Assembly (NCBI GenBank): GCA_011523425.1
Contig: WTGU01000035.1
Coordinates: 1 to 46,344, forward strand
DNA length: 46,344 bases
Reading direction: 5' to 3'
From: Alphaproteobacteria bacterium
GTDB taxonomy: Bacteria; Pseudomonadota; Alphaproteobacteria; UBA828
Shown here: positions 16,109 to 18,829 of the stretch, piece by piece
Layout of the letters: the number at the start of each line of letters is the position of its first letter
Position numbering within the stretch: the first letter of the stretch is position 1
Notes under the pieces: generated by a model
Seen by the model: the letters and a program-made list of their open reading frames with translations, nothing else
Database searches by the model: none
Told to the model about the DNA's origin: nothing
Program-made: the position numbers and the translations under genes

Positions 16109-17875
16109 TCAACTCCGGCCGGGTGCCGGGGTGTCCACGCGGATCGTGACGATGTCGGTGTCGTGATACTGCTGGTGGCGGACCGAGGACGCGAGGTGCC
16201 GCAGCAGCCTGAGCGAGACCTCATGCTCGGGCGCGCCGTCGGCCTGCTCGCTCATCACGGCGATCCGGTCCTCCAGATTGTCGTCGCCGGGCGCGGCGAT
16301 GAACTCCAGCACCGCGCCGCCGCCCTCCCTGTGGGCGGTGAGAAGCAGGCGCCGCTTCCGGGCCGCCGCGCCGCCCTCTTCCTCGCCTTCGCCTTCGCGC
16401 AGCAGCGTCAGCAGCGCCTCCTCGGCGGCGGCATCGAGGCGCTGCGCCATCGCCGCGCTCCAGCCGCTGCGTGAGGCGAAGCGCTCGAGAAACGCCCTGA
16501 TCTCGGGCAGCGACGCGACCTCGAAGGGCGCCTGCATGCGGCGTCGGCGGGGCGAGGTCAGCTCCACGAAGAGGGTGAGCAGGATCGCCACCAGGCCGCC
16601 GCCGGTCATGCCGTTCTCCAGCAGGCCGCCGGCGATGCCGGAGACGTGCTCGGGGAAGATCACGCCGTTCTGCAGGCCGACCCCGATCCAGAACGAGATG
16701 CCGGCGATCAGGCCCTTGCGGTAGTCGAGCCCGTCCTGCACGACGATCCGCATGCCGACGACGAAGAGCAGCCCCAGCAGCACGGTGATGTAGGCCGCCG
16801 CCACCGGCCCCGGTATCGCCATTACCACGGCGAGCGCCTTGGGGATGAACGCCACCGCGACGAAGACGATGCCGAGCGCGATGCCGACGCTGCGGGCGCC
16901 GACCCCGGTGAGCGCGGTGACGGATATGCTCGTCGAATAGGTCGTGTTCGGTACCGTCCCCATCAGGCCGGAGAGCAGGTTGCCGACGCCGTCCGCGCCG
17001 ACCGCGCCCTGCACCGCGCGGAAGTCCACCGCCCGGGGCTTGCGCCAGGAAACGCGCTGGATGGCGACCCCGTCGCCCACCGTCTCGATGGCGCCGACCA
17101 GGGTCACGAAGACGAAGGCCGGCAGCAGCCCCCAGAAGACCGGCCCGAAATCGAGATCGAAGCCGGGCCACGCGCCTTCGGGCAGACCGACCCACGCGGC
17201 ATTGGCGATGCGCTCGACCTCGTAGAGGCCGAAATAGCCGGCGACCCCGCAGCCGGCGACGATGCCGATGACCGGCGCCCAGAGGCGGAGCGCTCCCGTC
17301 GCCTTCAGCGCGATGGCGGCGATAACCAGCGCCGTCACCAGCGCAGACAGCGGCGCCGCCAGCGCCGGCGAGCCCTCCGGCACCTGACTCAGCATGCCGA
17401 AGACGATGGGCATCACCGTGACCGGGATCAGCATGATGACGGTGCCCGCGACCGTGGGCGTCAGAATCCGGCGCAGCAGCGACAGCCGCCACGCCAGCAG
17501 GAACTGGAAGAGGGACGAGATCACCACCAGGGTGGCCAGCATGGCCGGTCCGCCCTGGGCGATGGCGGCGACGCAGATCGCGATGAAGGCGCCCGAGGTG
17601 CCCATGACGAGGACGTAGCCGGCGCCGATCCGCCCAATGCGGCGCGCCTGCAGCACCGTGCTCACGCCGCTCACCAGGACCGCGGCGAAGACGGCCCACG
17701 TCAGGTAGGATTCGCTGCCGCCGGCGGCGCGGACCACGATCGCCGGCGCGAGCGCGACCCCGGCGATGCAGAGGATCGCGAGCTGCAGGCCGAGTCCGCC
17801 GCTGAGGAGTATCGGCGGCCGTTCGTCAGGCTGATAGCGAACGCCGCCGGGCCGCTCCGAGCCGCCCGTCGTCAT
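16109..17875 (-). CDS. NCS2-family nucleobase permease with C-terminal RsbW-like (degenerate HATPase) domain
   Basis: A 588-aa protein. Residues 1 to about 440 form a multi-helix uracil/xanthine permease (NCS2). The substrate helix is TLVGAIETVGDGVAIQRVSW, and the second half-helix is LSGLMGTVPNTTYSTSIS followed by LTGVGARSVG. Residues about 450-580 are soluble and resemble the anti-sigma/RsbW form of the histidine-kinase ATPase fold: FLERFASRSGW...AAAEEALLTLL, then LEFIAAPGDDNLED, then VSLRLLRHLASSVRHQQYHDTDIVTIRV. The N-box asparagine and the GxG loop are missing, so it may not bind ATP. It should import a purine or pyrimidine, with an attached sensory or regulatory domain. The SLC23/NCS2 call is firm; the C-terminal assignment is moderate. 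Confidence 0.85.
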   Translation of the reverse strand: MTTGGSERPGGVRYQPDERPPILLSGGLGLQLAILCIAGVALAPAIVVRAAGGSESYLTWAVFAAVLVSGVSTVLQARRIGRIGAGYVLVMGTSGAFIAICVAAIAQGGPAMLATLVVISSLFQFLLAWRLSLLRRILTPTVAGTVIMLIPVTVMPIVFGMLSQVPEGSPALAAPLSALVTALVIAAIALKATGALRLWAPVIGIVAGCGVAGYFGLYEVERIANAAWVGLPEGAWPGFDLDFGPVFWGLLPAFVFVTLVGAIETVGDGVAIQRVSWRKPRAVDFRAVQGAVGADGVGNLLSGLMGTVPNTTYSTSISVTALTGVGARSVGIALGIVFVAVAFIPKALAVVMAIPGPVAAAYITVLLGLLFVVGMRIVVQDGLDYRKGLIAGISFWIGVGLQNGVIFPEHVSGIAGGLLENGMTGGGLVAILLTLFVELTSPRRRRMQAPFEVASLPEIRAFLERFASRSGWSAAMAQRLDAAAEEALLTLLREGEGEEEGGAAARKRRLLLTAHREGGGAVLEFIAAPGDDNLEDRIAVMSEQADGAPEHEVSLRLLRHLASSVRHQQYHDTDIVTIRVDTPAPGRS

Positions 17876-17999: not shown

Positions 18000-18734
18000 T
18001 CAGCCGGCCACTCCCGAGACGGCCATCTTCACGTTGTGCTCGATGTCCGAGATCGCGCCCGCCAGCTCGCGGCCGATCAGGTCCATGTTCCGCAGCTGCT
18101 CAACGCGCGGGCGCAGGGCCTCCATCTTCCGGTCGGGGAAGACGTCGCCCAGGATGTCGCAGGCGTCCGCGAGGCCGATCAACGCCACGTCGCGGGGGTC
18201 GGGGATGTCGTCGGTGAGCAACACCCTGCCTATGCGCCGCTTGACCTCGCGCTCGGCCTCAACGTCGATCGTGCGGTAGCGCCGGACGTCGAGGGCCCGG
18301 AGGAAGCTTTTCTCCCCCCGCTCCAGGACGCCGAGTCCCGGCTGGAAGGCCGAGCGGAAGCTGTCCGGCCGTTGCGCCAGGACGCCCTGCAAGACGAGCC
18401 CCTGCAGCGCCTGCTCGCGGATGGACTCCGCGTCCTCGACCGAGAGCAGCTTGATCCAGCTGCGGGTGTCCATCGCCTCCTTCCGGGCCCCGATCTTCGC
18501 GAGCGCCTGGTCGAGCATGGGAGTGCCGGTGGGAGTCCGGTTGGTGACCGTGAGCGTCTGAAGATCGGTGTCGATCCGGTTGGCGAAGGCGAGGTCCATC
18601 AGCACGGCGCCGGCCAGCGCGCATGTGAGGCTGGTCCTGGGGATGGGGACGAAGGTTCCGGTCTCGTCGTCCAGCAGGAGCAGCAGCATCTGTTCAGTAA
18701 AGGTGAGCACGGCGCAGTCCAGCCGGAGGGTCAT
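18000..18734 (-). CDS. GPP34 (GOLPH3/Vps74-like) family protein
   Basis: A 244-aa protein with the GPP34 pattern: LTFTEQMLLLLLDDETGTFVP at the start, then TCALAGAVLMDLAFANRIDTD and LTVTNRTPTGTPMLDQALAKI, followed by an all-helical C-terminus. The eukaryotic relatives bind PI4P on Golgi membranes. In bacteria the family is known mainly from actinobacteria and its role is unclear. ATG 18734 was chosen because the family homology starts there; a TTG at 18806 would add 24 residues that look unconserved. The ribosome site is weak. It lies downstream of era on the minus strand, 95 bp away, so readthrough is possible. Confidence 0.75.
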   Translation of the reverse strand: MTLRLDCAVLTFTEQMLLLLLDDETGTFVPIPRTSLTCALAGAVLMDLAFANRIDTDLQTLTVTNRTPTGTPMLDQALAKIGARKEAMDTRSWIKLLSVEDAESIREQALQGLVLQGVLAQRPDSFRSAFQPGLGVLERGEKSFLRALDVRRYRTIDVEAEREVKRRIGRVLLTDDIPDPRDVALIGLADACDILGDVFPDRKMEALRPRVEQLRNMDLIGRELAGAISDIEHNVKMAVSGVAG

Positions 18735-18829
18735 CCCAGGGCCGTGCAATCGTCGAACACCGGGCACCGGCCTGTCAACGGCGTCGCGCGATCCGGTGAC
18801 GTGCAAGGCGGTCCGACGCCGGGTCCGCC

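Follow-up and report, generated by a model that had tools for sequence, protein, structure and literature searches.

NCS2-type permeases with a predicted RsbW-like pseudo-ATPase tail: an apparently undescribed fusion family found in an alphaproteobacterial genome and under the names of other phyla

In a passage of PMC6497670, the SLC23 family, to which the NCS2/NAT transporters UraA and UapA belong, is stated to have no C-terminal domain, and SLC26 transporters, which have the same 7TMIR fold, are described as carrying a STAS domain at the C-terminus, with transport impaired when this domain is deleted. The same source states that SLC4 and SLC23 relatives are dimers and that NCS2 dimers with an inactive protomer may be active (UraA) or inactive (UapA). 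The protein described here has the membrane half of one of these systems and, at its C-terminus, a domain whose predicted fold is that of anti-sigma-system proteins.

Layout of the fusion and its permease half

The window analyzed in this work is the whole 46,344-nucleotide stretch of contig WTGU01000035.1 (assembly GCA_011523425.1, Alphaproteobacteria bacterium). Its minus strand contains the fusion gene, and the plus-strand reading of the same coordinates (16109-17875) contains a stop. The features of the gene are given below.

16109..17875, minus strand: fusion gene, 588 aa plus stop (ATG-started ORF, Pfam)
16565..17818, minus strand: NCS2/UraA-fold permease domain, residues 20-437 (Pfam PF00860, E 3.7e-46; model Z 39.6 to UraA 5xls over 396 residues)
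17072..17086, minus strand: TM8 Glu264 to Asp268 (ETVGD), kept here and changed in both paralogues of the same genome (UapA alignment)
16922..16933, minus strand: residues 315-318, TSIS, at the NAT signature site, which reads QNNG in UapA and ENIG in uracil permease 8omz (profile alignment)
16529..16564, minus strand: basic membrane-proximal linker, residues 438-449, with RRRR at 443-446 (conservation, 90 members)
16127..16543, minus strand: RsbW-like putative pseudo-ATPase tail, residues 445-583 (model pLDDT 85; Foldseek and VIA matches)
16406..16423, minus strand: degenerate N-box, residues 485-490, EEALLT, with Glu486 kept and Thr490 at the Asn site (hhalign register)
16208..16222, minus strand: EVSLR, residues 552-556, degenerate ATP lid at the site of the canonical glycine loop (alignment)
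16154..16177, minus strand: family motif HQQYHDTD, residues 567-574 (His567 in 144/144, Tyr570 in 138/144)

The Pfam scan of the whole protein (E <= 10) matched only Xan_ur_permease (residues 28-401, E 3.7e-46) and HATPase_c_2 (residues 450-569, E 3.7e-4), and no C-terminal STAS domain. The HATPase_c_2 match of 20.9 bits, as well as that of the tail alone (25.5 bits), lies under the Pfam gathering score of 27.4. The same two-part split was given by the NCBIfam model RsbA_anti_sig, matched at residues 444-579 (E 2.5e-4) far under its cut-off. An earlier note on this DNA, made from the sequence alone, had proposed a nucleobase permease fused to an RsbW-like domain, and this layout was confirmed by the Pfam split together with the matches of the tail model to RsbW, SpoIIAB and UsfX. 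Its author knew of no characterized protein of this kind, and in open-licence papers neither such a protein nor any description of an NCS2 permease fused to an RsbW-like tail was found, so the layout is apparently undescribed in the searched literature.

Two trivial origins of the fusion were ruled out. Full-length relatives occur under several phylum names on contigs that are complete or very long, which excludes an artefact of one assembly, and one open frame runs across both domains in each of the 80 loci compared, which excludes misassembly or a frameshift. The exceptions to full coverage among these loci are L050, where the match stops at query residue 571, and L080 and L082, which start at query residues 33 and 20 at a contig edge.

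Concerning the membrane half, the earlier note spoke of a standard uracil/xanthine permease. The NCS2 family and the UraA fold were upheld, as the whole-protein model superposes on UraA 5xls with Z 39.6 (residues 13-443 of the window protein) and on 5i6c_A with Z 33.9, but the word "standard" was not. The NAT signature, located in TM10, has Asn at its second position. In the profile alignment, QNNGVIALTR of UapA and ENIGVMAITR of 8omz align with TSVSVTELTG of the fusion family, and the second position is occupied by S, G, A, T or I in 144/144 fusion proteins and by Asn in 0/144. TM8 Glu264 and Asp268 are kept in the window protein. With the signature replaced, naming the protein a uracil or xanthine permease is unjustified. 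Judging by the modelled fold, a nucleobase or a related small molecule is the likely substrate.

Fold and residue pattern of the tail

Modelled alone with AlphaFold on the aligned sequences of 37 family tails, the domain reached a mean pLDDT of 85 and a pTM of 0.80. A Foldseek search against PDB returned 18 matches at E <= 0.001, all of them chains of UsfX, RsbW or SpoIIAB entries, and the best VIA-align match was 6m37_C of the Bacillus subtilis RsbV/RsbW complex (Z 14.5, 2.3 A, 112 residues). The RsbW-type domain suggested in the earlier note is thus what the model of the isolated tail presents, neither an unrelated fold nor disorder. Confidence in the tail drops when the whole protein is modelled, with residues 531-556 under pLDDT 50. 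HATPase_c_2 is matched by 17 of the 37 family tails alone at E <= 1. A PDB sequence search with the tail profile retrieved only three designed proteins and a histone, which were taken as composition noise.

The residues were counted in an alignment of 144 distinct fused proteins (window protein included). The register of the N-box and lid was taken from hhalign of the tails against two canonical RsbW-like proteins that the window genome also encodes; with a probability of 2.6% and E 0.017, that alignment provides the register only, and homology rests on structure. The lack of the N-box asparagine and of the glycine loop, remarked on in the earlier note for one protein, extends to the whole family: the asparagine site 490 is Thr in 113/144, Ser in 14/144 and Asn in 0/144, and position 554, which faces the canonical lid glycine, is Ser in 134/144 and Gly in 2/144. 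At positions 527-528, DD in both canonical proteins, an acidic residue occurs in 0/144. In turn, Glu486, Asn533 and His567 are invariant (each 144/144), and Arg479 (143/144) and Arg556 (141/144) nearly so. The mean share of the commonest residue among the first 90 members is 0.68 in the tail and 0.78-0.82 in the membrane part. This conservation, together with the counts in 144 proteins, suggests that the tail is under selection, and the occurrence of close relatives in unrelated bacterial groups, many of them from marine sponges, makes it probable that the tail is functional. To judge from the model and the residue pattern, the tail is a degenerate and presumably catalytically dead domain of RsbW/SpoIIAB type that has lost its nucleotide-binding motifs. 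We infer that it is a pseudo-ATPase conserved for something other than catalysis.

Distribution, copies and neighbourhoods of the fusion

One scan of contigs found 280 relatives of the fusion, and the best 80 of these 280 are 62-88% identical to the window protein over nearly the full length; their named rows span ten phyla by NCBI labels, and a few rows are unlabelled. Era of the window served as a yardstick in 12 of the best-80 genomes; in ten it was 36-45% identical, where the fusion was 62-71% identical (best segment). These ten loci (L025, L030, L033, L041, L053, L055, L063, L075, L076, and L083) belong to other phyla or to Gammaproteobacteria. The values were 86% for Era and 88% for the fusion in L004, and 57% and 72%, respectively, in the alphaproteobacterial L016. 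The identity of the fusion, far above that of Era across phyla, points to lateral spread. The strong clustering of phylum labels on a quick tree (13 changes against a minimum of 9 and a shuffled mean of 30.4; SH-aLRT support only) suggests that transfers were infrequent or ancient, and not rampant. On that tree, Gemmatimonadota split into two groups, one joined to Latescibacterota and one to Acidobacteriota (support 100 for both), and Dadabacteria cluster with eight rows of Alphaproteobacteria (support 100). In our reading, the gene was transferred laterally several times long ago and has since stayed in its lineages, with the reservation that paralogues or bin errors can also split groups.

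Within the family of the window genome, the tail is present in 8/8 genomes of the same genus (own included) and in 0/13 genomes of other genera, as well as in 0/39 more distant genomes. With up to 10 candidates scored per genome, an even draw from the phylum gave at least 6 matching genomes of 398 (2 strong, including the own genome, and 4 weak), and a draw from the class at least 18 of 385, comprising the own genome, 10 strong matches, 6 distant fusions (L128-L133, 39-50% identical), and 1 weak match. In the phylum of the Dadabacteria-titled genome the tail was matched in 12/57 genomes; the 14 genomes listed with sizes of 0.8-1.1 Mb gave no match. With up to 20 candidates scored per genome, at least 32 of 200 genomes matched in the phylum of the Gemmatimonadota-titled genome, one of them with at least 12 tail matches that include free tails, and at least 9 of 198 (7 strong) in that of the Nitrospira-titled genome. 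An excess of xanP in marine Gemmatimonadetes is mentioned in PMC11596202; this excess could partly reflect an expansion of the fusion family.

Most of the best 80 of the 280 relatives carry labels of sponge MAGs, partly inferred, and 17 of the 80 titles have no placed habitat; two of these 17 are labelled Plut, presumably a coral label. The words "Spongia" and "sponge" occur in one title each. The label jk18x, an Ircinia MAG label according to a passage of PMC9531527, occurs in 18/80 titles, and 277c, given in a passage of PMC8941161 as a specimen label of Petrosia ficiformis, in 4/80. A further 22/80 contain RHO, COS or APA, initials that fit the species list in a part of PMC8163846, and p16x (9/80) and SB06xx (8/80) are likely sponge bins, based on naming style or on a mention in PMC12203066. 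As counted from these titles, the sponge link of the family looks strong; the counts speak for such a link and not for a restriction to sponges.

A PF00860 search of the window genome found three proteins, all of them tail-bearing. The window copy has the Glu264/Asp268 pair and the two others do not: the copy on contig C25 (QG paralogue) has Gln/Gly in TM8 and MPLGFRPTGASM in TM10, and the copy on C103 (RS paralogue) has Arg/Ser in TM8. The TM8 pair is intact in 97/144 tail-bearing proteins, and exactly one intact copy is present in 14/14 alphaproteobacterial genomes in which at least two full-length copies were read, fragments excluded (G000-G003, G005-G007, G096, G205, G298, G305, G375, G382, and G384). 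Most copies were found via the tail, so that outside the genomes searched with PF00860 this count would miss altered tail-less permeases. A general rule of a single intact copy in each genome does not hold: the pattern breaks in Gemmatimonadota, with failures in G980 (4 intact of 8 read) and G408 (2 of 6). The changed TM8 residues may also mean another substrate or coupling ion instead of a loss of transport.

Four tail-less PF00860 proteins (L210-L213, ORFs of 450-505 aa), encoded in genomes that also have the fusion, gave no match to the family profile or to the tail profile, and the same applies to L209, a PF00860 match in G403. By their motif we take L210-L213 to be of adenine/hypoxanthine type. 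L214 (G002) matched both PF00860 and, in BLAST, the window protein only weakly.

The tail also occurs without a permease. Six genomes were read, and in 4 of them, which belong to the same phylum as the Gemmatimonadota-titled genome (G845, G925, G966, and G980), a tail anchored by one helix, a membrane-spanning stretch judged by reading the sequence, adjoins a second, tail-only gene. Only the anchored form is seen in G1020, and in G1025 the contig breaks off at the place expected for the partner gene. These pairs are located at L185:8175-9101, L186:7224-8267, L189:9337-10411, and L173:1679-2812. The N-box asparagine is absent from the free-tail sequences shown, and the end of the G845 tail-only protein departs from the fusion family. 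The G845 pair is preceded by genes with semialdehyde dehydrogenase, DHDPS and THDPS_N_2 family matches. The scans of Gemmatimonadota and Nitrospirota also gave short ORFs (L177, L179, L180, L181, and L183) that may be split or partial fusions. The existence of tails without a permease indicates that the tail is a module and not a mere extension of the permease. It is poorly covered by annotation: the window protein stays under the HATPase_c_2 cut-off, and three free-standing tails (L185:8175-8678 and L186:7224-7667 among them) gave no Pfam match at E <= 0.01.

An explanation by operon logic was rejected, because the main copy has no conserved neighbour beyond its close relatives. Pfam scans of 57 chosen neighbours revealed no sigma-factor, STAS or PP2C gene and no purine-catabolism cluster; several neighbours had no Pfam match, and one, near L025, matched HATPase_c_3, a different ATPase family. 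The window genome as a whole has 9 STAS matches, and ORFs of 114-213 aa account for 7 of these. In the window, a GPP34 (Golgi phosphoprotein 3-like) gene (18000-18806, minus strand) lies immediately upstream of the fusion; its homologues are close to the fusion in L043, L059 and L066 and at a greater distance in L046.

In the window genome (L146:9039-13859), the QG paralogue follows the TRAP transporter genes DctP and DctM, its frame starting about 25 bases past DctM; genes encoding DctM-like proteins, 31-33% identical, occur in six other loci (L019, L020, L071, L075, L083, and L149), possibly by chance, as this is a common family. A YCII-like gene (L146:8687-8986) adjoins the QG-type paralogue in 8 genomes (L146, L093, L094, L123, L135, L136, L139, and L143). 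Within a few kb of the QG paralogue lies an ABC set of purine-nucleoside type (Bmp, ABC, BPD), and a PfkB kinase gene follows the RS paralogue; PfkB, Bmp and BPD were found beside no other copy, where most paralogue loci held only about 1.5 kb of flank. In L071 (5164-10497), L075 and L083, contigs titled Gemmatimonadota and Latescibacterota, two fusions stand between two PhyH genes, and in L069 one fusion does; the PhyH proteins of these four loci are 85-91% identical. Some PhyH relatives demethylate 2'-O-methyl nucleosides, as described in a passage of PMC12709175, and the PhyH neighbours may be a lead to the substrate of the fusion.

Proposed role and comparison with known systems

RsbW-type domains pair with each other. 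By analogy, the tails of the fusion might do the same, and paired tails would then link the intact permease with its transport-altered paralogues, or with free tails anchored in the membrane, and would set transport activity or location, comparably to STAS on SLC26 transporters. The reading that we favour is that the non-catalytic tail would be an assembly or regulatory module joining permeases and transport-altered paralogues, and it is held tentatively (probability about 0.45). It draws on the folds of tail and permease, the pseudo-ATPase residue pattern, the one-intact-copy pattern, the tail on all three PF00860 proteins of the window genome, and the free tails, together with the precedents of STAS in SLC26 and of NCS2 dimers with an inactive protomer. 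It is weakened by the pairing being an analogy, by the failure of the one-intact-copy rule in G980 and G408, by the recovery of most copies via the tail, and by the TM8 changes, which may mean another substrate or ion. The low pLDDT of residues 531-556 in the full-length model and the divergent end of the G845 tail-only protein weaken it as well.

A transceptor, an option raised in the earlier note beside the sequestering of a regulator according to substrate, is possible but doubtful. The tail would bind STAS or another regulator according to the transport state and report uptake to gene expression, with the altered paralogues as pure sensors. RsbW-type domains do bind STAS and sigma partners (such complexes are among the Foldseek matches), the window genome encodes possible partners in its 9 STAS matches beside two canonical RsbW-like proteins, the altered paralogues keep the tail, and the family-specific invariant residues suggest a conserved binding surface; however, no regulator gene was linked to the fusion in the scanned neighbours, and the context of the main copy is not conserved beyond close relatives. 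A plain structural domain, which would only stabilize the folding or the homodimer of the permease without any regulation, we consider unlikely: the dimeric state of SLC4/SLC23 relatives (according to the cited passage of PMC6497670) and the high conservation of the tail in intact and altered copies alike agree with it, but free-standing tails and the split between intact and altered copies ask for more than homodimer stability. Highly improbable is a tail whose former pocket still takes up a nucleotide or a different small ligand by an unconventional mode of binding and which gates transport by sensing that ligand, as the N-box asparagine, the acidic G1 residue (527/528, 0/144) and the lid glycine are gone, even though Glu486 at the N-box glutamate site and Asn533 near the former G1 box are both kept in 144/144.

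The assembly reading can be carried further, to an undescribed pseudo-GHKL family in which active permeases, transport-dead sensor permeases and anchored free tails would form heteromers, passed between phyla of sponge symbionts for uptake and sensing of nucleobase-like compounds of the host. We regard this extension as speculative, and rather against the odds. The spread of the fusion family raises the question of which compound matters enough for a transporter to cross phyla and multiply.

Compared with UraA and UapA, the fusion protein has the same fold, the same Pfam family (Xan_ur_permease), and TM8 Glu and Asp at the UapA-aligned sites. The second of these residues is His in uracil permease 8omz, in contrast to Asp in the window protein and in UapA. 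The window protein differs from UraA and UapA in its NAT signature (TSIS in place of QNNG/ENIG) and in the added C-terminal domain. With the tail-less PF00860 proteins of fusion-bearing genomes it shares PF00860, whereas those proteins match neither the family nor the tail profile. The modelled tail resembles RsbW, SpoIIAB and UsfX (HATPase_c_2) in fold, in a weak sequence match and in the kept N-box glutamate; unlike them, it has no N-box asparagine or acidic G1 residue, its lid glycine is replaced, and it is fused to a permease or membrane-anchored. The SLC26/SulP transporters share with the fusion the membrane fold class (SLC26Dg) and a C-terminal cytoplasmic domain of an anti-sigma-system fold, but the membrane half of the fusion is NCS2 and its tail is of the RsbW side, the partner of STAS, and not STAS itself. 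It can be tested whether transporters of the 7TMIR fold are controlled by an RsbW-type domain as SLC26 proteins are by STAS. If this is true, anti-sigma-system folds would be linked to the 7TMIR fold twice, once per partner side, and the fusion family would stand out as exceptional among SLC23 proteins, carrying the fold of the STAS partner where SLC26 carries STAS.
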